A DNA stretch of 42,365 nt from Actinomycetota bacterium (GTDB lineage: Bacteria > Actinomycetota > Thermoleophilia > Gaiellales > Gaiellaceae). Below, in pieces: positions 1,477 to 15,854 of the stretch. The position numbers and the translations under genes were made by a program. How positions within the stretch are numbered: the stretch's first letter is position 1; every line of letters starts with the position of its first letter. The notes under the pieces were generated by a model. It was not told the origin of the DNA, did not search any database, and saw nothing but the letters and a program-made list of their open reading frames with translations. Location: positions 13,496 to 55,860 of the forward strand of contig VAWZ01000101.1 of NCBI GenBank assembly GCA_005888365.1, given 5' to 3'.

Positions 1477-1501
1477 GTTTCGGGGACGGGGACGGGGGCA
1501 A
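1477..1501 (+). promoter_or_regulatory. Sigma-B/F-like promoter candidate (GTTT-N15-GGGCAA)
   Basis: GTTT at 1477-1480, 15-nt spacer, GGGCAA at 1496-1501, 13 nt before the ATG at 1515. Confidence 0.35.
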
Positions 1502-1514
1502 CCACGCAGTCCTC

Positions 1515-1685
1515 ATGACGGCTCAGTACACAGCGTGGCTCTTCGGACTCGCCGTCGGCGGGGCGATGGTGTCGTTCGGTATGGAGCTCGGCATGCTCTC
1601 GCGCCCGCGGCTCCGGACCCGTTGCGGGGCGTGCGGCCGCCTCGTCTGGCGGGGCCGCGTCTGTCCGTGCAGCCGGAACGCCTAG
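1515..1685 (+). CDS. 56-aa membrane-anchored zinc-ribbon-like micro-protein
   Basis: MTAQYTAWLFGLAVGGAMVSFGMELGMLSRPRLRTRCGACGRLVWRGRVCPCSRNA*: one TM plus CxxC...CxC. Too short for the supplied ORF track. Confidence 0.5.
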   Translation: MTAQYTAWLFGLAVGGAMVSFGMELGMLSRPRLRTRCGACGRLVWRGRVCPCSRNA

Positions 1686-1758
1686 CGCCTTCGAACGACC
1701 GGTCCCCAAGAACCTCGGTGTGGGAAAGCAGGGACAAGGCCGGACAGCAGGCATCTTC

Positions 1759-1795
1759 AGGGATCTGCGCGCGATCGGAATCTGCGCTTCCGATC
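1759..1795. repeat. Dispersed hairpin repeat, copy 1
   Basis: AGGGATCTGCGCGCGATCGGAATCTGCG matches 26/28 with 8297-8324; contains the perfect hairpin GATCGGAA-N7-TTCCGATC. Confidence 0.6.
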
Positions 1796-1816
1796 ACTCG
1801 CACTGACGAAACATCC

Positions 1817-1846
1817 GCGGGCGGCGGGCTCTTGCCCGCCGCCCGC
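1817..1846. terminator. Strong GC-rich hairpin, possible terminator
   Basis: GCGGGCGGCGGGC-TCTT-GCCCGCCGCCCGC: perfect 13-bp stem, 4-nt loop, no T-tract. Confidence 0.55.
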
Positions 1847-1972
1847 ATCCGCTCACACCGCTAGCGGGCCGTCAGGTGGTGGAGCGGACGAACGCGCTTC
1901 GTCGTCGACCCTGTGCAAACGTGGTACCCGCCGACGCGACTCTGCAACCGCGGTGAGAGATCTGTAGCGGAG

Positions 1973-1997
1973 GTTTCGGGCCTCGTGCTACGGGAAT
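1973..1997 (+). promoter_or_regulatory. Sigma-B/F-like promoter candidate (GTTT-N15-GGGAAT)
   Basis: GTTT 1973-1976, GGGAAT 1992-1997, 9 nt before ATG 2007. Confidence 0.5.
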
Positions 1998-2006
1998 CCA
2001 GGGCTC

Positions 2007-2210
2007 ATGGCGCGGTTCGAGTCACTAGTCTGGGAGCGGCGGGCCCCGCGGCCCCGCACCTACATCCCAGACCGGGGCCGGCTCCCGATCGATCCTCAGT
2101 CCGAGTTCGGCGGGCATCCACCGGGCAGGCTCGGGCGTCCCCTCGTCGCCGAGATCGACGCGTACCTCGACTTCTTCGCGCTCGCACACGAGCGCGAGAG
2201 CGAACGCTGA
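2007..2210 (+). CDS. Small conserved-looking protein of unknown function (67 aa)
   Basis: ORF directly downstream of a sigma-B/F-like promoter candidate, consistent with leaderless expression. Confidence 0.5.
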   Translation: MARFESLVWERRAPRPRTYIPDRGRLPIDPQSEFGGHPPGRLGRPLVAEIDAYLDFFALAHERESER

Positions 2211-2294
2211 TCTCATCCATGAGACGAAAGCGCCCTGCGCCCGGACCCTAAGAGTCGGGTGCCGCGACGGCCGGGTTGGGCCATCATATGAACG

Positions 2295-5200
2295 GTGTCT
2301 GAGCACGTAGCTCCGGCCGAGGCAGCCGCCGACGCTCGCTACGGCCCGCTCACGAGATCGTCGGTCATGCGCTATGGCATTGCGGTCCTCAGCGCGCTGG
2401 CCGCACTCGTCCTCGCCCGGATGCTCGTGCCGCTCGCCGACGCCCCCGTCTACTCGCTCCTCGTCGGCGCGGTGGCCGTCTCCATCTGGTACGGCGGGTT
2501 CCTGCCCGGACTCGTGACCCTTTGCGTCGGCTGGGCGATCGGTCCGTTCCTGCTCGTCGCCTCGGGATCCGAGGCGGGCTTCCACTCGCGCGACGACGTC
2601 CTGCGCTGGGCGATTCCGCTCGCGGTCGCGCTCGTGATCGTGTGGATCAGCGTCGTCATGCGACGCGCGCAGCAGTTCGCCGCGACCGCGGCCATCGCTG
2701 CGGAGGAGTCGACGAGGGAGATGGAGTCGCTCCAGCAGCTCGCGACGGCGCTCTCCGCGGCCGTGACTCAGACGGACATCGCACACGCCCTCATCGAGCG
2801 TACGCCCGCCCTGCTCGGTGCACGCGGCGGCTCGGTCGGCCTCATCGACGGCGACGAGCTCGTCATCCTCGACGCCGCGAGCCCGATCGTGCAGACGCAT
2901 CGATCGGGCCTTCGGCTGTCCCTCAGGATGCGGGCGCCGATCGTGCGCGCCGCCGCCGACGACGAGGTGATCGTCGTCCGCAGCCGCCCGGAGCTGACGG
3001 AGCGCTTCCCGGACGGCGCCGCCAGGTCGCCGTTCGCACACGCGGCTCTGGCCCTGCCGCTACGGGTCGCCGGAGAGGTCCTCGGCTCGATGAGCTTCCT
3101 GTACGAACGGAACACGCAGATCGAGGACGAGGTGGTCGCGGTCGCGGCGATCGCGGCAGACCTCGGCGGTCAGGCTCTCGAGCGCGCGCTCCTGTACGAG
3201 CGTGAACGGGAGTCGCGCCAGGCCCTCGATCGCGTCCTGCGCGTCGCCCCACGCTTTCACGCAGACACCGCCGAACATGCGGCGACCGCGATCTGTCGTG
3301 AGGCGCGAGTCACCTTCGCCGCGGACCTCGCCGAGATCTGGCGCGCCGATGGAGAAGCGGTCGAGCTCATGTCGCGAGAGCCGCACGCGGAGACACTTGC
3401 GCCTCCGCCGGCGGAGCCACTCGGGCTCGACGCGCTTCCCGGCTTGCGAAACGCGATCGAGCAACTCGAGGTGACGTTCGTGTCGGATACGGAAGCGCTC
3501 CTGCACGGCCCGCTCTTGCGCTACGCCCGGGAGCTGGGTGCTCGCTCCTGGCTCTGGGCGCCGATCGTGATCGGCGGACACGCAGAACGGGCACTCCTCC
3601 TCTCGTGGCACGACGTCGTCTCCGAGCCGGACGGATCGACGCTTCTCCTCGCGCGCCGCTTCGCCGACCACGCCGGGCTTGCGCTCGAGCAGATCGAGCG
3701 TCTCGAGGCGCAGGCGCAGGCGGCGCGCAGGGCCGAGCGCACACGTCGCCTGCAGCGGGTGACGGCCGCGCTTTCGCAGGCCGCGACACCGGCCGACGTC
3801 AGCGACGCCTGCCTCGAGCACGCGATGGCGGCCGTCGGCGCCGACGCCGGGCTGCTCGGATTCGTTCGAGAGACGGGCGATGAGATCGGCCTCGTCGCGT
3901 GGCGCGGCTACGCCGACGAGGCGCTCGAGGGGTACCAGAGAGTTCCTCTCGACTCCGACCTTCCGCTGAGCCTTTCCATCACCACGGGCGAGCCGGTCTG
4001 GGCACTCTCGGGTGAGACACGGGACCGCTCCTCGAGCGCGGCTCGACCCTCACTCGCGACCGACGACCAGGGATCGATCGCAGTGCCTTTGAAGATTGGC
4101 CGGAAGGTCCGAGGCGCGTTTCAGCTGTCCTTCCGAGAGCCCCACATGCTGAGCGACGAGGATCAGGAGTGGCTCGTTGCGCTCGCCTCCCAGTGCGCCC
4201 AGGCGTTCGAGCGGAGCCGGCTCTTCGACGAGGAGCAGCGACTACGGCGTCGATCGGAGCGCCTCCAGAGCTTGACCGCGTCGCTCTCGAGCTCGGTGAC
4301 TCAGGTCGACGTCGCGAACGTCGTGGTCGCGGAGGTCGCCGCTGCCGTGGAGGCGACCGCGGGCGCGCTCGCCGTCGTCGCCGACGACCAGCGCCAGCTC
4401 GTGCGGCTGGCGCAAAGCGGATACGAGCCCGACGACGTCGCCCCCTGGCTCGACGTGCGTGTCGACGCCCAGACGCCGGCAACGCGTGCGCTCAAGCGAC
4501 GTACTGCCAGGCTGTACGAGACGCGCGGCGGGATCGCACGGGAGTTCCCCGACGCGGTGGACGGATTCGTGCGCACCGGGCACCAGTCGTTCCTGTTCGT
4601 CCCTCTCGCCGTCGGCGGCAAGGCGAACGGCGTCATCGTGATGTCGTGGGCGGAGCGTGCGACCCTCGCCGACGAGGATCGCTCGTTCGTCCAGACGCTT
4701 GCGAACCTCGCCGCGGAGGCACTCGAGCGGGCACGGTACTTCGAGTCCGAGCGAACGATCGCGGAGACGCTTCAGCGCAGCGTGCTCCCCGTCTCGCTCC
4801 CCGAGGTGGACGGGATCAAGCTCGCGGCTCGTTACCTCCCGGGGACGGCCGACGTCGACGTCGGCGGCGACTGGTTCGACGTCATCAACGTCCCGAGCGG
4901 CCGTCTGGGTCTCGTCGTCGGCGACGTGGTCGGGAAAGGCGTGGAGTCGGCTGCGACGATGGCCCAGCTGCGAAACGCACTGCGCGCCTTCGCGCTCGAC
5001 CGAATGAAGCCGTCGTCGACGCTGGCGCGTCTCAACCGGCTTGTCGACGGCGTCTCGGAATCCGCCTTCGCCACGGTCGTCTATGTCGTCGTCGACCCCG
5101 CAGCCCGTGTCTGCCGCTTCACGTCAGCCGGGCATCCGCCGCCCCTCGCGATCTACCCGGACGGAAGCGCGGCCTATCTCGAAGGTGGGCGAGGGCTCCC

Positions 5201-5855
5201 ACTGGGAACCGTCGCCGAGCCCAAGTACCCGCAGGGCGTCGTCGAGCTTCCGGTTGGAACGACGTTGATCCTCTACTCGGACGGCCTCATCGAGCGGCGC
5301 GACAAGACGATCGACGAGGGACTGGCGGAGCTGCGAGCCGCAGCCCTCGCCGCGCCGCTCGACCCGGAGCGCCTCGTCGAGCATGTTCTCGAGGAGCTCC
5401 TCGGCTCAGGCGAGCGCAGGGACGACGTCGTGATCCTCGCCGTCCGGCTCCTGGTAGCGGCTCCCGAAACGCTTCGCCTTCGCCTGCCGAGCACGACCGA
5501 TTCCCTCGACGTCGTCCGAGACGCCATGCGGGCGTGGCTGGAGCACGCTCCGGTGACGCCGGCCGAGGCGGGAGAGATCGTCCTCGCCGCGTGGGAGGCC
5601 TGCGCGAACGCGGTCGAGCACGCAGTCGACCCGGCCGACGACTTCTTCAGCTTCACGGCCGAGCTCGACGAGCTCGCGCTGCGCATCTCGATAGACGACA
5701 CGGGAACCTGGAGCCCGGAAACGGTCGGCGAGAACCGTGGGCTCGGGTTGCAGTTGATGCGCTCGCTCATGTCCTCGGTGGAGATCGAGATGGGCGCCGA
5801 GGGAACGAAGGTCACGCTCGAGCGGGACATCGTGGGCCCGGCGACCGTCGCCTAG
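2295..5855 (+). CDS. DUF4118-type membrane region + about four GAF-like domains + SpoIIE/PP2C phosphatase + C-terminal RsbW-like HATPase
   Basis: N-terminal TM segments; repeated GAF-like units starting LQQLATALSAAVTQTDIA / LDRVLRVAPRFHADTAE / LQRVTAALSQAATPADVS / LQSLTASLSSSVTQVDVA; PP2C motifs ADVDVGGDWFDVI, GDVVGKGVESAATMAQLR, SAGHPPPL, YSDGLIERRD; HATPase motifs WEACANAVEHA, DDTGTW, GLGLQLM. Confidence 0.9.
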   Translation: MSEHVAPAEAAADARYGPLTRSSVMRYGIAVLSALAALVLARMLVPLADAPVYSLLVGAVAVSIWYGGFLPGLVTLCVGWAIGPFLLVASGSEAGFHSRDDVLRWAIPLAVALVIVWISVVMRRAQQFAATAAIAAEESTREMESLQQLATALSAAVTQTDIAHALIERTPALLGARGGSVGLIDGDELVILDAASPIVQTHRSGLRLSLRMRAPIVRAAADDEVIVVRSRPELTERFPDGAARSPFAHAALALPLRVAGEVLGSMSFLYERNTQIEDEVVAVAAIAADLGGQALERALLYERERESRQALDRVLRVAPRFHADTAEHAATAICREARVTFAADLAEIWRADGEAVELMSREPHAETLAPPPAEPLGLDALPGLRNAIEQLEVTFVSDTEALLHGPLLRYARELGARSWLWAPIVIGGHAERALLLSWHDVVSEPDGSTLLLARRFADHAGLALEQIERLEAQAQAARRAERTRRLQRVTAALSQAATPADVSDACLEHAMAAVGADAGLLGFVRETGDEIGLVAWRGYADEALEGYQRVPLDSDLPLSLSITTGEPVWALSGETRDRSSSAARPSLATDDQGSIAVPLKIGRKVRGAFQLSFREPHMLSDEDQEWLVALASQCAQAFERSRLFDEEQRLRRRSERLQSLTASLSSSVTQVDVANVVVAEVAAAVEATAGALAVVADDQRQLVRLAQSGYEPDDVAPWLDVRVDAQTPATRALKRRTARLYETRGGIAREFPDAVDGFVRTGHQSFLFVPLAVGGKANGVIVMSWAERATLADEDRSFVQTLANLAAEALERARYFESERTIAETLQRSVLPVSLPEVDGIKLAARYLPGTADVDVGGDWFDVINVPSGRLGLVVGDVVGKGVESAATMAQLRNALRAFALDRMKPSSTLARLNRLVDGVSESAFATVVYVVVDPAARVCRFTSAGHPPPLAIYPDGSAAYLEGGRGLPLGTVAEPKYPQGVVELPVGTTLILYSDGLIERRDKTIDEGLAELRAAALAAPLDPERLVEHVLEELLGSGERRDDVVILAVRLLVAAPETLRLRLPSTTDSLDVVRDAMRAWLEHAPVTPAEAGEIVLAAWEACANAVEHAVDPADDFFSFTAELDELALRISIDDTGTWSPETVGENRGLGLQLMRSLMSSVEIEMGAEGTKVTLERDIVGPATVA

Positions 5856-5903
5856 TGGTAGTCCGGGCGGCCGCAGGAATCCGCGTCTGGCCGATGAGCG
5901 GAC

Positions 5904-5928
5904 GTTTGGCCGCTTCGGCCCCGGGTAT
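5904..5928 (+). promoter_or_regulatory. Sigma-B/F-type promoter candidate (GTTT-N15-GGGTAT)
   Basis: GTTT 5904-5907, 15-nt spacer, GGGTAT 5923-5928; matches the known sigma-B/F-type consensus, upstream of the sigma-factor operon. Confidence 0.6.
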
Positions 5929-5984
5929 CGAGAGATCGAGCGTGACGCGCCAGATCCCACTCTCCACCATCTTGGGCGCTCCCC

Positions 5985-6317
5985 GTGCACGCCCGCGGTA
6001 GCCGAGTGGGCATCGTCACCGATGTCTATGCGGACGGCGCGTCGGCGTACGTGGTCGGGCTCGAGGTCACGGGCGGGAACGAGCGCCGCTGGTTCCTGCC
6101 CTGGGTCGCGACGACCTTCGAGGACGAAACCGCGCACGCCGCGTTGCCGCTCGTCTTCGTTCCCTCGGAGCAGCTTGCGTCCTACGTGGAACGCGGAACG
6201 CGGCTCGCGGAGAGCGGCCCGAACGGCCTCCTCGTCGACACGGATGGAAGGTTTGCTCGCCCGACCCCCGAGCACCCTGTTTCGGGCTCTCTGAGCGCGG
6301 GTACCGGCGAGTCGTGA
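5985..6317 (+). CDS. Small PRC-barrel-like protein
   Basis: SRVGIVTDVYADGASAYVVGLEVTGGNERRWFLPWVATTFED resembles PRC-barrel strands; overlaps the next ORF by 4 nt. Confidence 0.6.
   Translation: MHARGSRVGIVTDVYADGASAYVVGLEVTGGNERRWFLPWVATTFEDETAHAALPLVFVPSEQLASYVERGTRLAESGPNGLLVDTDGRFARPTPEHPVSGSLSAGTGES
6279..6304 (+). promoter_or_regulatory. Sigma-B/F-like internal promoter candidate (GTTT-N16-GGGTAC)
   Basis: GTTT 6279-6282, GGGTAC 6299-6304, 9 nt upstream of the GTG at 6314. Confidence 0.45.
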
Positions 6318-6739
6318 ACCCGGCCTCCGAGCCGATCGACGTCTGCTGGGACACCCCCGGCGAGGCCGTGGGAGAGGCGGCGGTCGAGCTCGAGCTGCCG
6401 GCGTCGGCTCCGTATCACGCCGTGGGCCGCCTCGTCGTCGGCGGCGTCGCGCACCGCGCCGGCATCCAGGTCGAGACGATCGAGGATCTGCAGCTGGCCG
6501 TCGAGGCACTCCTCTGTCGTCGCCCTGTAACACCGTCGCTGACCCTGGAGCTGACCGAGTCCGAGCTCGAGCTGCGGGTGAGGTTGGGACCGTTCGCCCC
6601 CGCTCCCGACGACCGTGACCGGGTGTCGCGGATGCTCTCCAGCCTCGTGGACGAGGCGGTCATGCAGGATGGGACGGACGGCGACTGGATCGTCCTGAAC
6701 ACCATGCATCGCCGGGCCGTCGCCCGCGAAAGCCCATGA
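6314..6739 (+). CDS. Degenerate RsbW/HATPase-like protein
   Basis: VELELPASAPYHAVGRLVVGGVAHRAGIQVETIEDLQLAVEALL parallels the RsbW N-terminal half but lacks the N-box ExxxN, DxGxG and G2 motifs. Confidence 0.55.
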   Translation: MNPASEPIDVCWDTPGEAVGEAAVELELPASAPYHAVGRLVVGGVAHRAGIQVETIEDLQLAVEALLCRRPVTPSLTLELTESELELRVRLGPFAPAPDDRDRVSRMLSSLVDEAVMQDGTDGDWIVLNTMHRRAVARESP

Positions 6740-6799
6740 GCCTTCGCCTACCGTCGTCACGGCGACACCGACGCTCGCGATCAGCTCCTCGTCGACCTG

Positions 6800-7465
6800 A
6801 TGCCGCTCGTCCGAGCGCTCGCCTCGCGCTACGCGGGCCGCGGCGAGCCACTCGAGGACCTCGTGCAGGTCGGAGCGCTCGGCCTGATCAAGGCGGTCGA
6901 CCGCTTCGACGTCGACCGTGGGGTCGAGTTCTCGAGCTACGCGGTCCCGACGATCGTCGGCGAGATTCGCCGGCACTTTCGGGACAAGGCGTGGGCAATG
7001 CACGTCCCGCGCCGGCTGAAGGAGCTCTCCGGGCGCCTCTCGCGGATGCTCGACGAGCTCACGACGGAGCTCGGACGCTCGCCGACGGTGGCCGAGCTCG
7101 CCGAGGCGACCGGCGTGGAGGAGGAAGACGTCATCGACGCGCTCGACTCGGCGCACGCGTACTCGACGCGCTCGCTGCAGGCTCCCTTCGACGACGAGGG
7201 GGAGGACAACCTTTTCGACAAGCTCGGTGTCGAGGAACAGGGGTATGCGGACGTCGAGGACGGGTCCATCGTCAGCGCAGGGCTCGAGGCGCTCGACGGC
7301 CGCGAGCGGCGCATCGTCGAGCTCCGCTTCTTCGACGAGATGACGCAGTCCCAGATCGCAGCCGAGCTCGGTATCTCGCAGATGCACGTGTCCCGGCTCC
7401 TCCGCCGCGCGCTCGGCACGATGCGCGGGAGAATCGACGAGGTCATGGGCGACGCCGATGAATGA
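6800..7465 (+). CDS. RNA polymerase sigma factor, sigma-B/F/G type (apparent start-proximal frame problem)
   Basis: Sigma-70 regions 2-4: EDLVQVGALGLIKAVDRFDVDRGVEFSSYAVPTIVGEIRRHFRDKAWAMHVPRRLKEL; C-terminal HTH SQIAAELGISQMHVSRLLRRAL. Coding similarity extends upstream to 6740. Confidence 0.92.
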   Translation: MPLVRALASRYAGRGEPLEDLVQVGALGLIKAVDRFDVDRGVEFSSYAVPTIVGEIRRHFRDKAWAMHVPRRLKELSGRLSRMLDELTTELGRSPTVAELAEATGVEEEDVIDALDSAHAYSTRSLQAPFDDEGEDNLFDKLGVEEQGYADVEDGSIVSAGLEALDGRERRIVELRFFDEMTQSQIAAELGISQMHVSRLLRRALGTMRGRIDEVMGDADE

Positions 7466-7874
7466 CACGGTCGTTCGCCTCACGTTTCCGGCGAAGGCGG
7501 ATTACCTGCTGCTCGCGAGGCTCGCGCTCGCGGGACTCGCCCGCTCGCTCCCGCTCGATCCAGAGCTCGTGGCCGACCTGAAGCTGGCCGTGACCGAGGC
7601 GTGCGGGAACGCTGTCCGACACGCGTACACCGACTCCACAGGACCGATCATGGTCGAGTTCGTCACCGCGGACGACCGTTTGGAGATGATCGTCGAGGAT
7701 CGGGGCTCGGGGTTCGACGGCGGCACGATCGGCGAGTGGGAGAACGGGAAGCCTCCCGAGGGCGGGATGGGAATGGCGATCATGCGCGCGGTCGTCGACG
7801 AGCTCGACGTCCGCGGAGGAGACGACGGTCACGGGACCGTCGTGCGCATGACGAAGTACCTCCCAGTCACCTAG
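7458..7874 (+). CDS. RsbW-like anti-sigma factor / serine kinase
   Basis: Intact HATPase motifs: KLAVTEACGNAVRHAY (N box), VEDRGSGFD (G1), GGMGMAIMRAVVDEL (G2); overlaps the sigma gene by 8 nt. Confidence 0.88.
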   Translation: MNDTVVRLTFPAKADYLLLARLALAGLARSLPLDPELVADLKLAVTEACGNAVRHAYTDSTGPIMVEFVTADDRLEMIVEDRGSGFDGGTIGEWENGKPPEGGMGMAIMRAVVDELDVRGGDDGHGTVVRMTKYLPVT

Positions 7875-8242
7875 GGATCGACGAGGTCGCGCAGCGCGTC
7901 CCGTCGCGACGGGGCAATCGGGAGCACCCGGTCGAGCGTCGTGATCTCGAAGATCCGTCGCGCGCTCGACTCGGGAAGGACGACGCGCGCACCTCCGCCG
8001 ACATCGAGGATCTCGTTGACCTTCCGCACGACCAGGCCGAGGGCGGTCGAGTCCATGAACGACACGCGGGTGAGGTCGATGACAAGCCGGTCGGCGCTTC
8101 CGTCGCCTGCCTGGGCGAGTGCGTCGGCCAGATCCTCGGCCGTGAAGGCGTCGAGCTCGCCGTGGCCGCTCACCACGACGGCCTGCCCGTCTCGTTCGAC
8201 CCGGACCCCGTTCACACCGAAAAGAAAACCAGTTGCGAGCAA
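7871..8242 (-). CDS. STAS-domain anti-sigma factor antagonist
   Basis: GELDAFTAEDLADAL...LVIDLTRVSFMDSTALGLVVRKV; conserved Asp-Ser phosphosite context. Exact start uncertain. Confidence 0.85.
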   Translation of the reverse strand: MLATGFLFGVNGVRVERDGQAVVVSGHGELDAFTAEDLADALAQAGDGSADRLVIDLTRVSFMDSTALGLVVRKVNEILDVGGGARVVLPESSARRIFEITTLDRVLPIAPSRRDALRDLVDP

Positions 8243-8296
8243 CTCGCGGATGATGTGAAAGCAGGAGGCGCCGCAGCCGCTGTGCGGCTGCGCTTG

Positions 8297-8355
8297 AGGG
8301 ATCTTCGCGCGAGCGGAATCTGCGGGAGCGGAATCTGCGGGAGCGGATTCCGCTC
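8297..8355. repeat. Dispersed hairpin repeat, copy 2, with internal tandem 15-mer
   Basis: 26/28 match to 1759-1786; GAGCGGAATCTGCGG twice (8311-8340), then GAGCGGATTCCGCTC. Confidence 0.6.
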
Positions 8356-8362
8356 TTGCGCA

Positions 8363-8722
8363 CTACAGGCCGGCGAGCACTTCCTCGAGTGAAGGCCGAA
8401 TCGTCGCGACCTGGTCGAAGCTGACGATCGAGAGCGTCTTCGCCACGGGCGAGGTCGCCGGAAGCACCAGGCCGAAGGCCTTGCCCTCGGCCTCGAGCCT
8501 GCGCGCGAAGCGGAAGAGCACATGCAGTGCAGCGCTGTCGAAGAAGAGGATCCCGTTCAGGTCGAGAACAACCTTCGAGACGCCCGCTGCGATCTCTTCC
8601 AGGCGTCGCTCGAGCTCCTCCGCGTTCGTCAGGTCGAGCTCGCCCGCGAGCTCGCCGAGCGCAATCTCGCCGACATCGGTCTCGCGCACCTCGAGCTCGT
8701 AGGACGTCACACGCGCCAGCAT
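8363..8722 (-). CDS. STAS-domain anti-sigma factor antagonist
   Basis: GELDLTNAEELERRLEEIAAGVSKVVLDLNGILFFDSAALHVLFRFARRL. Confidence 0.85.
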   Translation of the reverse strand: MLARVTSYELEVRETDVGEIALGELAGELDLTNAEELERRLEEIAAGVSKVVLDLNGILFFDSAALHVLFRFARRLEAEGKAFGLVLPATSPVAKTLSIVSFDQVATIRPSLEEVLAGL

Positions 8723-8750
8723 ACGGCGGTCCGCGGGCGACGCCGGGGGC

Positions 8751-8776
8751 GTTTACAGCTCCGACGGGGCGGGCAT
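8751..8776 (+). promoter_or_regulatory. Weaker sigma-B/F-like promoter candidate (GTTT-N16-GGGCAT)
   Basis: GTTT 8751-8754, GGGCAT 8771-8776, about 60 nt upstream of ATG 8839. Confidence 0.3.
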
Positions 8777-8838
8777 CACGAGGCAATGCTCCTCGTGACG
8801 GCGACGTCGAAAGCGCCGGATGCCTCGGCGGGGTCAGG

Positions 8839-9215
8839 ATGAGTTCGACCCGGTTTGCCCATCCCGTCGAGCGCGGGATCGCGCGGATCTTCGACGAGCA
8901 CGGCATCGAGCGGCAGTACGAGCCGCACACGTTCGTCCTCGAGCGCTTGAGCGACGGCACCGTGCACGAGGCGTTCACCCCGGACTTCTTCTCCCCGATC
9001 TCGGCCTCTACGTCGAGTGCACGGTGATGCGTCAGGCGGTCGCCACCCGCAAGCGGCGCAAGGCGCAGAAGCTAGGAGTGAACGTCGAGGTCTTGTTCCG
9101 CGCCGACATCGAGCGCCTCGCGAGCCACTGGCGGCTCCGACGGCTGGAGCACGCCGCTCGAGCGCGCCCGCCGAGTCGGCGAGGGGCTCCGAGCGTGCGA
9201 GGCATGCATGCCTGA
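8839..9215 (+). pseudogene. PD-(D/E)XK-fold-like small protein, split by a 1-nt frameshift
   Basis: MSSTRFAHPVERGIARIFDEHGIERQYEPHTFVLERLSDGTVHEAFTPDFF continues in the other frame as PDLGLYVECTVMRQAVATRKRRKAQKLGVNVEVLFRADIERLASHWRL. Confidence 0.6.
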
Positions 9216-9609
9216 GCAACTGCTGAAAGGCGGAAACGGTCGACTGGGCTCGACAGCCCGGTTTCGAATCGAGGACGAGTCGCAGAAGGGCGTGGGCGCG
9301 TTGCTCTCGGCGTACGGGGAGCTCGACCTGCACGTCGCTCCGGAGCTGCAGGACTTGATCGCCTCGGTTGCCGACGAAGGGGTCAAGCTGATCGTCCTCG
9401 ACCTCTCCGAGGTGACGTTCATCGACTCGATGGCCTTCGGCGTCCTGCTCAGAGCGGTCACGCGGCTCCGTCGTATCGGCGGCGACGTCCGCCTCGTGGT
9501 TCCGAGCCCCGAGCTCCGGCGGATCTTCGAGATCACTCTCCTCGATCAGTTCTTCTCACTCGACTCCACGCGCGAGGAGGCGTACGCGCGGGCAGTTCCC
9601 TCGGACTAG
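9208..9609 (+). CDS. STAS-domain anti-sigma factor antagonist
   Basis: GELDLHVAPELQDLIASVADEGVKLIVLDLSEVTFIDSMAFGVLLRAVTRL. Confidence 0.85.
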   Translation: MPEQLLKGGNGRLGSTARFRIEDESQKGVGALLSAYGELDLHVAPELQDLIASVADEGVKLIVLDLSEVTFIDSMAFGVLLRAVTRLRRIGGDVRLVVPSPELRRIFEITLLDQFFSLDSTREEAYARAVPSD

Positions 9610-9944
9610 AGCGCTTCTGCGAGCGTCGAGTGAATCGGCACGACCGTGTCGACGCCTGCGATCTCGAGCGCCTTGCGGATTCCCCCAGCGGGTGCAACCA
9701 CCGCGACCCGGCCGCTCACCGGTTCAGCTTTCCTCGCCGTCTCGAGCAGGGCCCGCATGGCGGAGGAGTCGAGGAACGAGCACTCGGTCAGATCGACGAC
9801 GAGCGGCGCAGAAGGGCTCGTGCTCTCGAGCTTCTCCCGGAGGGCCCAGACGTTCGCCAGATCGAGCTCGCCGGTGACCCTGACGATCGCGCCTCCGGCG
9901 GGCAGCTGCTCGACCACGACCTCGAGGTCGTCGATACTTGCCAC
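9606..9944 (-). CDS. STAS-domain anti-sigma factor antagonist
   Basis: GELDLANVWALREKLESTSPSAPLVVDLTECSFLDSSAMRALLETARKA; TAGACT 7 nt upstream of the GTG start. Confidence 0.85.
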   Translation of the reverse strand: MASIDDLEVVVEQLPAGGAIVRVTGELDLANVWALREKLESTSPSAPLVVDLTECSFLDSSAMRALLETARKAEPVSGRVAVVAPAGGIRKALEIAGVDTVVPIHSTLAEAL

Positions 9945-9961
9945 GCGGTCGAGTCTAGGCG

Positions 9962-10357
9962 ATGGTGGAGGGCATGAGACATAGCGAGGAGCCCGGAACG
10001 GTGGGGTCGATGACCGACGACATCGTCCTCACGATCCCGACGAGCCCTCGGCTGCGAAGCGTGGCGACGCTCGTCCTCGGCGGCGTCGGGAGCCGCTTGC
10101 GGCTCTCCTACGAGAAAGTGGACGACCTGCAGCTCGCGGCGCTGAGCGTGCTCTCCGCCTCGGCCGACGACGTCGTGACGCTCGAGGTCACGGCGGGCGA
10201 CGACTCCCTCGCCCTCGACATCGGCCCCCTCCCGGCCGGCACGGGCTCGGACGCAGGGCTCAGGCGCATCCTCGAGCGGCTCGTCGACAGCGTGGAGCCG
10301 TCGCAGCGGGCCGGGCGCGAGTGGCTGACGCTCCGGCTGGCGCGGTCGGCCACGTAG
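9962..10357 (+). CDS. Degenerate RsbW/HATPase-like protein (second copy)
   Basis: DDIVLTIPTSPRLRSVATLVLGGVGSRLRLSYEKVDDLQLAALSVLSAS parallels 6314-6739 and the RsbW N-terminus; ATP-binding motifs absent. Start may be ATG 10010. Confidence 0.5.
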   Translation: MVEGMRHSEEPGTVGSMTDDIVLTIPTSPRLRSVATLVLGGVGSRLRLSYEKVDDLQLAALSVLSASADDVVTLEVTAGDDSLALDIGPLPAGTGSDAGLRRILERLVDSVEPSQRAGREWLTLRLARSAT

Positions 10358-10381
10358 CGGCCGTCACAACGAGCCGGACGA

Positions 10382-10406
10382 GTTTGCGGATCGGAGTACG
10401 GGGCAC
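10382..10406 (+). promoter_or_regulatory. Weaker sigma-B/F-like promoter candidate (GTTT-N15-GGGCAC)
   Basis: GTTT 10382-10385, GGGCAC 10401-10406, 9 nt before ATG 10416. Confidence 0.35.
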
Positions 10407-10415
10407 CCTCCATCC

Positions 10416-10733
10416 ATGAACGTGTCGAGGCGCGGGAGACGAGAATCGAATTCCAAACGGCGCACACCTGCTCTCGTCTTCGTGAGTCAACGGAGCTCTG
10501 GGCCGTCACGGCGGATGGAGAGCCTCGTCGCCTGGGTGAAGGTCACGCAGAAGAAGCGCCTGCGGGTCATCGACGTGGACGCCGACGAGAATCCGATCGT
10601 CGTCCGCAGTCTGGACGTCTCGCGTATCCCCGCTCTCGTCCTCATCAAGGACCGTCGCGTCCTCGGCCGGCTCGAAGGCAGGGCGACCGGCCAGCAGATC
10701 GACGACCTCATCCGTCCGCATCTGGCCGCGTAG
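10416..10733 (+). CDS. Thioredoxin-fold protein with SxxS in place of CxxC
   Basis: ALVFVSQRSSGPSRRMESLVAWV...VIDVDADENPIVVRSLDVSRIPALVLIKDRRVLGRLEGRATGQQIDDLI: Trx layout with cis-Pro (RIPALVLIKD). Confidence 0.65.
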   Translation: MNVSRRGRRESNSKRRTPALVFVSQRSSGPSRRMESLVAWVKVTQKKRLRVIDVDADENPIVVRSLDVSRIPALVLIKDRRVLGRLEGRATGQQIDDLIRPHLAA

Positions 10734-10744
10734 ACTCGGCCCCC

Positions 10745-11755
10745 ATGTTCGAGGGGGGTCTCGCCGAGCTGCACACCCATCTGGGAGGGTCGGTCGCCTC
10801 CGACATCCTCTGGAACCTCGCCCACGAGCAGGGCATCGCGCTTCCGGTGAAGGACTTCTGGGAGTTCGACGCGCTCGTCACCGTCTCCGATCCGCGCGGC
10901 GTCAAAGGTCTCGACGAGCTCGACCAGATCTACCACTGGACTGAGCTCATCCAGTCTTCCCCGATCGCGGTCGAGCGGTCCGTGCACGGGGCGATAGGAG
11001 GCGCCTACCGCTCACAAGGAATCACAACCCTCGAGCTCCGCTTCAACCCCATGAAGCGAAACCGAGGGGGAGAGCGCGACCTCGACCACATCATCCTCGC
11101 CGCGATCCGCGGCCTCGACACTGCGAGCCTCGAGTACCCGCAGGTCCGCGCCGGGTTGATCCTGATGATGGACCGGACCTTCGAGCGGCGGCTCAACGAG
11201 ATCATCGTCGAGAAGGCGATTCGGTGGGCGAGCCGCGGGATCGTCGGCGTGGACATCGCAGGGCCGCGCCCGGGACCCGGCCCCTACGAGTACGCGCAGC
11301 TCGAGCCGATGATCGAGTCAGCGCGGGAGGCGGGGCTCGGGATCACGATCCACGTCGGGGAGGAGGGAGGCGACGTGGGTCGCTCCGAGATCGGAGAGGT
11401 CGTCGAGCGCCTGCGTCCCGAGCGGATCGGGCACGGCATCCTCGCTGCCGGTGACGAAGGGCTCGAGCGCGCGCTTCGCGAGCTCGGCGTCGTGCTCGAG
11501 ATTTGCCCGACCTCGAACCTCCTGACGAAGGCGCTTCCGGACGAGGAGGCCGTTCGCGAGACGATCCGCCGCTTCGTCGAGAGCGGGGTCGCCTTCACGA
11601 TCGCGACGGACGGGCCCGAGATGATGCGGACGCATCTCCGCGACGAGTTCGAGCTCCTGTTCCGCATCGGCGCCCTGGACGAGAACGAGCTCCGTGAGGC
11701 AAACGCCCGCGGGCACGCCGCGGCCTTCGGTCGGCGCACGGCCGTGTCCGTCTAA
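10745..11755 (+). CDS. add: Adenosine deaminase
   Basis: AELHTHLGGSV, HVGEEGG, ERIGHGI, LEICPTSNLLT, ATDGPEMM motifs of the adenosine deaminase family. Confidence 0.85.
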   Translation: MFEGGLAELHTHLGGSVASDILWNLAHEQGIALPVKDFWEFDALVTVSDPRGVKGLDELDQIYHWTELIQSSPIAVERSVHGAIGGAYRSQGITTLELRFNPMKRNRGGERDLDHIILAAIRGLDTASLEYPQVRAGLILMMDRTFERRLNEIIVEKAIRWASRGIVGVDIAGPRPGPGPYEYAQLEPMIESAREAGLGITIHVGEEGGDVGRSEIGEVVERLRPERIGHGILAAGDEGLERALRELGVVLEICPTSNLLTKALPDEEAVRETIRRFVESGVAFTIATDGPEMMRTHLRDEFELLFRIGALDENELREANARGHAAAFGRRTAVSV

Positions 11756-11762
11756 GAACTCG

Positions 11763-14000
11763 CTACCCGTCGGCGTTGCCCGAACGAGCCGCTACCGCCG
11801 CCGTGAGCTCGGCGAGGAGGGCGCGGACCTCCCCCGGGCCGACCACGTGCACGTGCTCACGCCGCCCCTGATGCGAGCGTCCGCTCGGAAGCAGCCCGCC
11901 GACGTGACCCGCGACCGAGCCGGAGGGGAGCGCATCCAGAAGGTCGTGATCCGTCCGGTCGTCGCCGAGGCCGAGGACGAACCGTGTCTGCTCCTTGCCG
12001 TTCGGGAAGACGGTGCGCACGTAGACCCCCTTGTCCACCCCGCTCGCGCGCACCTCGACCACGCGCTGGCCGAGCAGGATCTCCGCGGGCGCCCCCGCGA
12101 GGTGCTGTCCGAGATCGTTGAGCAGCTCGTGCGCGCGCCAGGCCCCGTACTCGGGCTCGGCCTCCCGGTAGTGGAAGGCGACGCTGCAGGACTTGCGCTC
12201 CACGTGCGCGCCGGGGACGTCCGCCGCGACGCGCCGCAAGAGTCGCTCGATGCGCCGCATCCAGGAAAGGTCGAGGTCCAGGAGCGTCCGCCACTCCTCG
12301 TCCGGGGCACGCGCGAGGTAGCCGTGCTCCGCGCAGAGATGGACCGGCAGCCGCCCGAACCATTGCTCGAGATTTCGGCGGCGGCGGCCGCTCACGATGT
12401 GCACGTCCGTCCGCGGGAGCGCCACGAGGCCCGAGAGCAGATCGATGATCCCGGGCGTGGGGACGGCGAGGTCCGGATGTGCCTCGAGCTCGCGCAGGGT
12501 GCCGTCGTAGTCGAGCAGGATGGTCCTCGCCCGCGCCCTCGCGAACCGCGCCTTGAGCCGCTCTTCGACCTCGCCCTCGACGTCAGGGGGGAGCCGCCGC
12601 CCGCGCTCGCGCCGCGAGTAGCGGCCGAGGCGGGAGAGGAATCCCTCCGCCCAGTGCTTGCAGTCGAGGTCCTGAACACGCTTGGCCATCGTCTCCAGCC
12701 GACGACGCCGCTCGCCTCCGTCTAGCTCGAGCGCCGTTCCGAGCCGCTCGACGACGCCGTCCATGTTCCACGGGTTGACGAGGAGGGCTCCCGGGAGCAC
12801 CTGGGCCGAGCCGGCGAACTCGGAGAGGAGCAGCGACCCGCGCCAGCGTCCGGGAGGCCCCGGCTCGGACTGGCAGAGCACGAACTCGTGCGCGACGAGG
12901 TTCATCCCGTCACGCAGCGGAGTCACCATCATCACATCGGCTCGCCGGTAGAGCGCCACGAGGCCCGGCTTCGAGATGTTGCGATGGAGGTACTCGACCG
13001 GCGTGACGCCCGGCTGGCCGAAGCGCCCGTTGATTCGCGCGATCAAGAGCTCGATCTCGTCGCGCTGCGCCCGGTACTCGGGAGACTCGAGCCGCGAGGG
13101 AACGAGCACCTGCAGCATCGTAGTCGTGCGGGCCCGTCCCGGATCCTGCTCGAGATAGCGCTCGAAGGCGAGGAGCTTCTGCGGGATGCCCTTCGTGTAA
13201 TCGAGCCGCTCGACGCCGAGCACGAGCCTCCGCTCCGTGTACTGCTCCTCGAGCTGGGAGAAGAGGCGCGCGGTCTCGGGATCGCGAAGCACCTCCCGGA
13301 AGCCCGTCACGTCGATCCCGATCGGGTCGACGCCGATGCCTACGCGCCGACCGCTCATGTCGAGCGAGTCGGGCTGCGAGTCGGCTCCGAGGACCCGCAG
13401 GCACGAGGAGCGGAAGTGGCGCGCGTAGTCCCCGGTCTGGAAGCTCACGTAGTCGGAGCCAAGGACGCCCCGGAGCGCCTCCTCCCGGGTCGGGAGCAGG
13501 CGGTACACCTCGGAGGAGGGGAACGGCGTGTGCAGGAAGAAGCCCACGGCGAGATTGGGAGCCCGCCGGCGCAGCATCGCCGGAACGAGCATGAGGTGGA
13601 AGTCGTGCACCCAGACGCGGGTGTCGGGTCCGCAGCGGCCGAGGATCGCGTCCGCGAAGCGCTCGTTGACCTGGACATACCGGAGCCACGCCTCCGGGGT
13701 GATGCGGAGCCTGTCGCCGAAGTAGTGGAAGAGCGGCCACAGCGTGTCGTTGCAGACGCGGCCGTAGAAGTCCTCTTCCTCGTCTGCCGTGAGGAAGACG
13801 GGCACGAGGTTGTCCTCGCGCAGGCGCCGCGTGACCTCGGGCTCGAGGGTCGCCGGCACGACGGTCCCGGGCCAGCCGATCCACACCGCGTCGCCCCGCA
13901 CGGCGCGCAGCGCCGCGGCCAGTCCGCCCGCCGACTGCGACAGCTGGAACTTGTCGCCGGTGACGGTAAAGCGCACGGGCAAGCGGTTGCTCGCGATCAC
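11763..14000 (-). CDS. Bifunctional trehalose-6-phosphate synthase / trehalose-phosphatase
   Basis: OtsA part: IASNRLPV, WVHDFHLMLVPAMLRRRAP, VERLDYTKGIPQKLLAFE, TPLRDGMNLVAHEFV; OtsB part: ILLDYDGTLRELEAHPDLAVP, LGDDRTDHDLL. N-terminus may extend a few codons (LAEGTGHKPLVIASNR). Confidence 0.92.
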   Translation of the reverse strand: MIASNRLPVRFTVTGDKFQLSQSAGGLAAALRAVRGDAVWIGWPGTVVPATLEPEVTRRLREDNLVPVFLTADEEEDFYGRVCNDTLWPLFHYFGDRLRITPEAWLRYVQVNERFADAILGRCGPDTRVWVHDFHLMLVPAMLRRRAPNLAVGFFLHTPFPSSEVYRLLPTREEALRGVLGSDYVSFQTGDYARHFRSSCLRVLGADSQPDSLDMSGRRVGIGVDPIGIDVTGFREVLRDPETARLFSQLEEQYTERRLVLGVERLDYTKGIPQKLLAFERYLEQDPGRARTTTMLQVLVPSRLESPEYRAQRDEIELLIARINGRFGQPGVTPVEYLHRNISKPGLVALYRRADVMMVTPLRDGMNLVAHEFVLCQSEPGPPGRWRGSLLLSEFAGSAQVLPGALLVNPWNMDGVVERLGTALELDGGERRRRLETMAKRVQDLDCKHWAEGFLSRLGRYSRRERGRRLPPDVEGEVEERLKARFARARARTILLDYDGTLRELEAHPDLAVPTPGIIDLLSGLVALPRTDVHIVSGRRRRNLEQWFGRLPVHLCAEHGYLARAPDEEWRTLLDLDLSWMRRIERLLRRVAADVPGAHVERKSCSVAFHYREAEPEYGAWRAHELLNDLGQHLAGAPAEILLGQRVVEVRASGVDKGVYVRTVFPNGKEQTRFVLGLGDDRTDHDLLDALPSGSVAGHVGGLLPSGRSHQGRREHVHVVGPGEVRALLAELTAAVAARSGNADG

Positions 14001-14060
14001 GAGCGGCTTGTGTCCGGTCCCTTCAGCCAGCGGTCCTCCCTTCCGATGATGGACGTGGCG

Positions 14061-14075
14061 GTAGGTACAACCTAC
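14061..14075. promoter_or_regulatory. Operator-like inverted repeat between divergent trehalose genes
   Basis: GTAGGT-ACA-ACCTAC, between the otsAB-like (-) and GH15 (+) genes. Confidence 0.35.
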
Positions 14076-14096
14076 GCGTCGGCGAAAGCATCACCT

Positions 14097-15854
14097 ATGA
14101 CACGCGGTCTCGGCATCATCGGCAACTGCTCGTACAGCGCGCTGCTCCGCAACGGGTCGGTGGAGTGGATGTGCTGGCCACGCCCTGACTCGAGCTTCGT
14201 CTTCGGCCCCTTGCTCGACGCCGAGCGCGGCGGGGTGTTCGCGGTCGAGGGTGTCGACGCGACGGACGTCAGGCAGGAGTACGTCGAGAACACGAACGTT
14301 CTCCGTACGGTGTTCGACGGGCCGAGCGGGACCTTCGAGCTCGTCGACTTTGCGCCTAGGTTCCAGCAGTACGATCGCTTTTTCAAGCCGTCCATGCTCG
14401 TCCGCATCCTGCGCCCGCTCTCGGGAGAGCCGCGCGCTCGCGTGCGCTGCAGCCCGCGCTACGACTACGGCCTCGTCGAGGCGGGCTCCTGGCGCGCCTC
14501 GAACCACATCGAGTACGCGGGCTTTCCCGCACCGGTCCGCCTCACGACCAACCTGCCCCTCACCTACGTCGAAGACGAGCGCCCGTTTCTCCTCGAGCGT
14601 GATCGGCACCTCGTCCTCACCTGGGGCCAGCCGCTCGAAGCCGGACTGGAGGAGACCGCCGAGCACTTCCTCGAGCGTACGGTCGACTACTGGCGCGGCT
14701 GGGTGAAGGGGACACGCGTCCCGCGCGACTACCAGGGCGAGGTGATTCGCTCCGCGCTCGCGCTCAAGCTTCACCAGTACGAGGACACGGGTGCCCTCCT
14801 CGCCGCGACGACGACGAGCCTGCCCGAGCACCCCGGATCCGGCCGCACCTGGGACTACCGCTACTGCTGGCTCCGCGACGCGTACTTCACTCTGAACGCG
14901 TTCGAGCGGCTCGGGCACTCGGAGGAGATGGAGCTCTTCCTCGAGTACCTCCGGAACCTGGCCGAGCGCGAGGGCGCACTCCAGCCCGCGTACCGGATCA
15001 ACGGCGGGGAACTCGCGCCCGAGACCGAGCTCGAGCACCTCGCCGGCTTCAACGGCGACGGGCCGGTTCGCGTCGGCAACCAGGCCTTCGAGCACCGGCA
15101 GAACGACGTCTACGGCGAGATGGTGCTCTCTGTCAGCCGACTCTTCCTCGATACGCGCTTCGTGGGGGAGATCCCTCCGCTGACCGCCGTCTCGATCGTG
15201 TCGAACCTACTCGACAAGATCGAGGCGAGGCTCGAGGAGCCGGACGCCGGACCGTGGGAGTTCCGCGGCCGCACGCGCCTCCACAGCTTCGCCGTGCTCA
15301 TGCACTGGGCCGGAGCCAGGCGCTCGATCGAGATCGCCGAGGCGCTCGGCGACGAGGATCTCGCCGCGCGAGCCCGCGAGCTTGCCGGGCGAGCGCACAC
15401 GCTGCTCGAGAGCCGTTGCTGGAACCACGAGATCGGAGCCCTCACGCAGGTCGTCGACGAGCCGCAGCTCGATGCCGCGAACCTGCTCGCCGTGCACCTC
15501 GGCTACCTCGACGCGGGCGATCCGCGGGCGACGTCGCACGTCGACGCGATCCGCGAGCGGCTCTCCGTAGACGGCGGCCTGTTGCGCCGCTACGACGGGA
15601 ACGACGACTTCGGCTCGATGCACGCGGCCTTCACGGTCTGCAGCTTCTGGCTCGTCGAGGCTCTAGCCATCCTCGGCCGGAAGGACGAGGCCCGCGAGCT
15701 CTTCGAGCACCTGCTCGGGCTCCACAACGGGCTCGGCCTGTATAGCGAGGACATCCTCCCGGACACGCTCGAACAAGCGGGGAACTTCCCGCAGACGTAC
15801 AGCCACGTCGGCCTCATCAACGCCGCCTTCAGGCTGTCGCGCAGCTGGGATTAG
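14097..15854 (+). CDS. Glycoside hydrolase family 15 protein (glucoamylase/trehalase-like)
   Basis: GLGIIGNCSYSALL..GSVEWMCWPRPDSSFVFGPLLD; TWDYRYCWLRDAYFTLNAF; PQTYSHVGLINAAFRLSRSW. Confidence 0.9.
   Translation: MTRGLGIIGNCSYSALLRNGSVEWMCWPRPDSSFVFGPLLDAERGGVFAVEGVDATDVRQEYVENTNVLRTVFDGPSGTFELVDFAPRFQQYDRFFKPSMLVRILRPLSGEPRARVRCSPRYDYGLVEAGSWRASNHIEYAGFPAPVRLTTNLPLTYVEDERPFLLERDRHLVLTWGQPLEAGLEETAEHFLERTVDYWRGWVKGTRVPRDYQGEVIRSALALKLHQYEDTGALLAATTTSLPEHPGSGRTWDYRYCWLRDAYFTLNAFERLGHSEEMELFLEYLRNLAEREGALQPAYRINGGELAPETELEHLAGFNGDGPVRVGNQAFEHRQNDVYGEMVLSVSRLFLDTRFVGEIPPLTAVSIVSNLLDKIEARLEEPDAGPWEFRGRTRLHSFAVLMHWAGARRSIEIAEALGDEDLAARARELAGRAHTLLESRCWNHEIGALTQVVDEPQLDAANLLAVHLGYLDAGDPRATSHVDAIRERLSVDGGLLRRYDGNDDFGSMHAAFTVCSFWLVEALAILGRKDEARELFEHLLGLHNGLGLYSEDILPDTLEQAGNFPQTYSHVGLINAAFRLSRSWD

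Follow-up and report, generated by a model that had tools for sequence, protein, structure and literature searches.

A 9-kb locus in a Gaiellaceae genome carries a SigB/SigF-type partner-switching module with four STAS proteins and two RsbW-like proteins lacking the ATP-site motifs

Results

This study deals with a SigB/SigF-type partner-switching module located in a window of 42,365 nucleotides, i.e., the whole stretch of DNA analysed, taken from an Actinomycetota bacterium of the family Gaiellaceae (assembly GCA_005888365.1, contig VAWZ01000101.1, positions 13,496 to 55,860). Using Pfam and NCBIfam scans for all domain calls, we found the parts of such a module in this window: a sigma factor, an RsbW with its N, G1 and G2 boxes, phospho-Ser STAS proteins and a SpoIIE/RsbU-type PP2C phosphatase, together with two apparently dead RsbW-like proteins, named here dead1 and dead2. 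An initial annotation, made from the letters of this DNA alone, had already recognized the fused phosphatase-kinase, the sigma factor, RsbW and the four STAS proteins, and the domain searches upheld these calls; its gene listing was less complete, as it overlooked a PRC-barrel gene and a frameshifted open reading frame (ORF). The features of the locus are as follows:

1972-1997 (+): weak SigF-type site, GGTTT-N15-GGGAAT, about 300 bp 5' of the fused gene and found with the relaxed pattern only
2295-5855 (+): membrane-anchored fusion of four GAF domains, a SpoIIE/PP2C phosphatase and an RsbW-type HATPase (Pfam)
5904-5928 (+): SigF-type promoter, GTTT-N15-GGGTAT, exact match, 5' of the PRC-barrel, dead1 and sigma genes
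5985-6317 (+): PRC-barrel protein (PF05239, 1e-5), overlapping dead1
6279-6304 (+): SigF-type promoter, GTTT-N16-GGGTAC, exact match, immediately 5' of dead1
6314-6739 (+): dead1, RsbW/UsfX-like without N, G1 and G2 boxes (alignments, predicted fold)
6740-7465 (+), start approximate: SigB/SigF/SigG-type sigma factor (TIGR02980)
7458-7874 (+): RsbW serine kinase, overlapping sigma (HATPase_c_2, N/G1/G2 boxes)
7871-8242 (-): STAS1, phosphosite FMDSTA (Pfam STAS)
8363-8722 (-): STAS2, phosphosite FFDSAA (Pfam STAS)
8840-9182 (+): frameshifted ORF between STAS2 and STAS3, break near 8990, no Pfam match
9208-9609 (+): STAS3, phosphosite FIDSMA (Pfam STAS)
9606-9944 (-): STAS4, phosphosite FLDSSA (Pfam STAS)
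9962-10357 (+): dead2, RsbW/UsfX-like without N, G1 and G2 boxes (alignments, tree, predicted fold)
10416-10733 (+): thioredoxin-like protein, syntenic neighbour (PF00085, 2e-7)

The fused protein combines four GAF stretches with SpoIIE (1e-51) and HATPase_c_2 (9e-20) domains and with N-terminal hydrophobic segments, in which DUF4118 scored slightly under its cut-off, so that its domain content suggests a sensor phosphatase that carries a kinase domain as well; orthologues were found in five genus-mates (G001, G003, G004, G006 and G010). The sigma factor matched the SigBFG model over its cut-off (5e-84) and is 80-87% identical to its orthologues within the genus. RsbW gave the best HATPase_c_2 match of the genome (1e-28), with intact boxes (N = EACGNAVRHA, G1 = VEDRGSG, G2 = GGMGMAI), and is followed by the four STAS genes on alternating strands, all over the Pfam cut-off. 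Their phosphosite contexts (MDSTA, FDSAA, IDSMA and LDSSA) had been read correctly at the outset, and the serine is invariant in an alignment of 29 STAS sequences from the genus and family. In the corresponding tree, STAS sequences group by locus position and form deep groups, some with moderate supports. Note that G006 has a fifth, degenerate STAS with the site DATS (L048:5201-5575), which lies between its fusion and sigma genes, i.e., at the position occupied here by the PRC-barrel gene and dead1.

In the whole host genome (2.66 Mb, 92% complete), the STAS model matched four places, all inside the module locus, and HATPase_c_2 matched two places strongly, RsbW (100 bits) and the fusion (76 bits), while the third-best match (34 bits) lies within the histidine-kinase range. 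The fusion is the sole strong SpoIIE match, next to one weak PrpC-like phosphatase, and a single sigma factor of the SigB/F/G type passed 1e-30, at this locus. Thus, the 9-kb stretch holds every detected STAS, strong SpoIIE-type, RsbW-class and SigB/F/G protein of the genome. Since no further STAS, SpoIIE-type or RsbW-class protein was found, the STAS proteins must, among the detected parts, share their partners, in line with the early proposal of several antagonists competing for one or two kinases; an additional member may exist, given that about 8% of the genome is perhaps missing.

The gene set was compared in 11 genomes of the genus, i.e., the window genome and ten genus-mates. Conservation of the neighbourhood had been set beforehand as the refutation test, and the module was found as a set in seven of the 11 genomes, six of them genus-mates; the early description of a partner-switching module therefore holds, including its several STAS antagonists and its two HATPases of the catalytic type, and the set is conserved in relatives. 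Indeed, the order in G010, G006 and G003 is fusion, sigma, RsbW, STAS1 (-), STAS2 (-), STAS3 (+), STAS4 (-), dead2 and thioredoxin, and G005 and G001 show the identical order on contig fragments. In G004 the set lies on two contigs, one with sigma, RsbW, STAS2, STAS3 and dead2 and the other with the fusion, STAS1 and STAS4, and the STAS matches of this genome are exactly four, all within the split module. dead2 occurs in all seven module-bearing genomes and in none of the four lacking the module, two of which are fragmentary (53-63% complete). The thioredoxin-like gene is found near dead2 in G001, G003, G004, G006 and G010. No counterpart of the PRC-barrel gene was seen at the same place in genus-mates.

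The two apparently dead RsbW-like proteins, pointed out early on, do lack all three ATP-site boxes (N, G1 and G2): neither the Asn of the N box nor the glycine motifs of G1 and G2 are present in dead1, dead2 or the aligned family members, whereas RsbW retains them. Neither protein matched a Pfam family, and only the N-terminal ~45 residues of both match RsbW models (Pfam/NCBIfam). Their AlphaFold models (pLDDT 85 for dead1 and 90 for dead2) resemble in Foldseek searches RsbW (6e-8 and 9e-8, respectively) and UsfX (6e-7 and 9e-7), with dead2 also matching SigF-UsfX (2e-6); SpoIIAB in PDB is matched as well, with E-values of about 1e-8 to 1e-5 overall.

The dead family is present in 36 of 61 related genomes and, outside the genus, typically lies immediately upstream of the sigma gene (~30 related genomes). 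dead1 is directly upstream of sigma, and dead2 is located downstream of it in every genus member that carries the module. In the tree, dead2 forms a genus clade within the family; dead1 falls in the same group as a long branch, which makes its exact position unsure. Since in most related genera the dead gene adjoins sigma, with no RsbW found nearby, the dead protein is probably the older partner of the sigma factor. We regard as intermediate the arrangement of G030, outside the genus, in which dead, sigma and RsbW follow one another with two STAS genes alongside. In addition, among the Streptomyces, Frankia and Nocardioides loci retrieved with the homologous sigma factor, most have upstream of it a protein with a 'DLRIAVDEACAMLL'-like N-box remnant, for which the dead profile gives a higher score than the kinase profile. 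A profile built from these 'DLRIAVDEACAMLL'-type proteins and some Thermoleophilia dead-family members found B. subtilis RsbW (6e-18) and M. tuberculosis UsfX (7e-17); the direct comparison of the dead-family profile with UsfX was weak (E 0.08).

For the promoter search, an exact SigF-type site was defined as GTTT-N13-17-GGGTAY; the mycobacterial SigF consensus is given as GGWWT-N16-17-GGGTAY (PMC7693655) or GTTT-N14-19-GGGTA (PMC4694148). The window holds three exact matches (0.06 on average in shuffles), and the whole genome six matches to GTTT-N14-16-GGGTAY. The module loci of the genus contain 19 exact sites for 0.065 expected from first-order Markov resampling. The seven module-bearing genomes together have 56 exact sites in 16.3 Mb (module-locus sites included; reversed-pattern control 9) and the four genomes without the module 7 sites in 8.0 Mb (control 5), a difference in rate with p = 6e-5, genome sizes being rounded. 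In genus-mates, genes for DUF6458 and transglycosylase-associated (GlsB/YeaQ-like) membrane proteins sit between STAS1 and STAS2, preceded by an exact site in G003, G005 and G010; in the window genome, DUF6458 is encoded on contig C30, where a separate exact site precedes it.

The suggestion that small ORFs of the locus carry candidate promoters of this type was borne out in part. The exact promoters at 5904-5928 and 6279-6304 stand; for the ORFs at 1515-1685 and 2007-2210, no exact SigF-type promoter was found in front, and the matches in genus-mates were composition-driven only, without a convincing homologue. Note that G010 has a strict site (L038 5600-5625) at a distance matching that of the weak site 1972-1997, which precedes a small ORF there.

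Two reading frames appear broken. The sigma frame opens right after the dead1 TGA and has no start codon before the ATG at 6800, so that the sigma N-terminus appears interrupted in the assembly; the ATG overlapped by the dead1 stop (6736-6739), i.e., the start expected from an ATGA overlap, is out of the sigma frame, and starting at 6800 would drop ~20 residues conserved in relatives. dead1 and sigma were seen to share a common frame with one TGA between them. A programmed read-through fusion was considered and rejected: in the relatives examined, dead and sigma never form one open frame, which makes an indel likelier. The second break, near 8990, affects the 8840-9182 ORF. In G006 the counterpart of this ORF (L048:2065-2394) is intact and shares an uninterrupted frame with STAS3, and a SigF-type site lies between the two. 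By eye, its TPDF..E..K-like pattern suggests a PD-(D/E)xK nuclease. Either frameshift could stem from an error of the assembly or from a mutation of the strain; a programmed event is conceivable, but nothing supports it.

Concerning the remainder of the window, no Rfam family or tRNA was found. An interspersed repeat, GGATCTTCGCGCGAKCGGAATCTGCG, occurs at 1755-1786 and 8293-8324 and has 24 copies in the genome with up to 3 mismatches (0 for the reversed control), including three copies each on contigs C23 and C153 at a spacing of exactly 94 bases. The region 10745-15854 encodes, as named by eye, adenosine deaminase, trehalose-6-phosphate synthase/phosphatase-like and GH15-like genes, whose synteny with the module extends to G003 and, in part, to G001; a stress link of the trehalose genes is possible. 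Also by eye, 18766-40862 holds a dense purine biosynthesis cluster (purH, purN, purM, purF, purL, purQ, purC, purB, purD and purA), followed by a dnaB-like gene.

Discussion

Our results suggest, with a probability of roughly 0.6, that this locus encodes a self-contained SigB/SigF partner-switching system with four antagonists, which regulates its own expression and belongs to the split kind known from mycobacteria. This reading builds on four observations, namely the parts themselves, their conservation as a set across the genus, the missing ATP-site motifs of dead1 and dead2 and the excess of SigF-type promoters. In unstressed cells, RsbW, and perhaps also the HATPase of the fusion, would phosphorylate the STAS proteins on the conserved serine, and the sigma factor would be held by a kinase-negative RsbW in the role of UsfX/RsbW1 (dead2, and here also dead1) and/or by RsbW. 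The GAF sensor would then activate the PP2C domain, and the STAS proteins, once dephosphorylated, would capture the anti-sigma factor(s). The sigma factor released in this way would transcribe the operon that encodes it and further genes, for example those for the DUF6458 and GlsB/YeaQ-like membrane proteins. With four STAS paralogues and two kinases, several inputs may thus converge on one sigma factor. Alternatively, one dead protein could be an RsbW3-like, SigF-induced antagonist disabling the other by heterodimer formation.

Mycobacterium provides the closest precedent. In M. smegmatis, the anti-sigma factor RsbW1 is encoded with sigF and binds SigF without phosphorylating RsfB, RsbW2 keeps the N, G1 and G2 boxes and acts as a kinase without binding SigF, and RsbW3, which has no kinase activity and is SigF-dependent, is an antagonist of RsbW1 that increases the activity of SigF, apparently through contact with RsbW1 (PMC7693655). 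The mycobacterial SigF system (UsfX/RsbW1, RsbW2, RsbW3, RsfA and RsfB) thus resembles the present one in its SigB/F-type sigma factor, a kinase-negative RsbW encoded with it, a separate N/G1/G2 RsbW kinase, phospho-Ser STAS antagonists and the GTTT-N-GGGTA promoter; here, in contrast, all parts lie in a single 9-kb locus, with four STAS genes and an intact RsbW gene after sigma, and the sensor phosphatase bears its own HATPase with GAF and membrane input. Rv1364c of M. tuberculosis (structure 3ke6), in which sensor, PP2C, RsbW and STAS domains form one protein (PMC7693655), likewise has sensor, PP2C and RsbW-type HATPase on one chain, whereas the fusion here has four GAF domains and membrane segments and no fused STAS domain. 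Both the fused phosphatase-kinase and the kinase-negative RsbWs being already known, the variant part lies in the compactness of the single locus and in its four STAS proteins. A search of the literature library at hand for partner switching in Thermoleophilia found no paper.

The initial annotation had viewed the dead HATPases as scaffolds or decoys. The position of their family upstream of sigma, its RsbW/UsfX-like profile and predicted fold and the M. smegmatis precedent (PMC7693655) speak against this view, and dead1 and dead2 are probably better explained as UsfX/RsbW3-type partners.

Several points weigh against the split mycobacterial reading. The direct profile likeness between the dead family and UsfX is weak, and the proposed link passes through intermediate sequences and predicted fold; dead1 is a very long branch without an equivalent beside sigma in genus-mates; and the beginning of the sigma frame is broken in the present assembly. 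Moreover, which RsbW-like protein would hold sigma is judged from precedent and gene order, and the gene order of the genus points both ways. Indeed, the intact RsbW is the gene overlapping sigma in the genus, which makes an arrangement like that of Bacillus possible. The RsbU-RsbV-RsbW-SigB system shares with the locus a phosphatase, a STAS antagonist, an RsbW kinase, a SigB-type sigma factor and a promoter of its own type before the sigma operon, and differs from it by the two non-kinase RsbW-like proteins, the four STAS proteins and the fused phosphatase-kinase found here. With such a core, RsbW alone would be kinase and anti-sigma factor, and dead2 (and dead1) would be modulators, heterodimerising with RsbW or binding STAS proteins, a view near to the decoy proposal of the initial annotation. 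The sigma gene is overlapped or abutted by RsbW in the genus and in G030, and the kinase-negative RsbW3 of M. smegmatis works by binding another RsbW (PMC7693655), but a dead gene, and not RsbW, directly adjoins sigma in most related genera, and we hold this arrangement to be a serious but clearly less likely option.

It is rather improbable that only some of the four STAS proteins act on sigma, with two partner-switching circuits served by one common phosphatase: the alternating strands, the deep tree groups and the split in G004 (STAS1 and STAS4 on the contig of the fusion, STAS2 and STAS3 on that of sigma) would fit such a division, but the searches detected no further RsbW-class protein and no further SigB/F-type sigma that could be the output of a second circuit. 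Decay of the module in the window species, with dead1 as a degenerating copy and a frameshifted sigma gene, is very unlikely. The interrupted sigma start, the frameshifted neighbouring ORF and the long dead1 branch would fit it, but all remaining ORFs are unbroken, two exact SigF promoters persist and the fold of dead1 is predicted with good confidence.

Conclusions

A more far-reaching scenario, which we consider less likely than not, can be tentatively envisaged: RsbW-like proteins would have lost the ATP site across an actinobacterial family, one of them being relocated (in the genus) and a second kept (in the species) inside a closed locus, in which four distinct STAS antagonists, two kinases and one or two non-kinase RsbWs would form a combinatorial switch acting on one sigma factor, with kinase docking and sigma docking divided among paralogues. 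A single locus with all detectable parts of SigF partner switching, including four conserved types of STAS protein, and for which the module-lacking genus-mates are natural controls, makes the long-standing question of why kinase and anti-sigma roles are split over RsbW paralogues in actinobacteria testable with a small reconstituted set. Finally, our findings suggest that RsbWs without an N-box beside a SigF-type sigma factor are common across Actinobacteria and not specific to mycobacteria.

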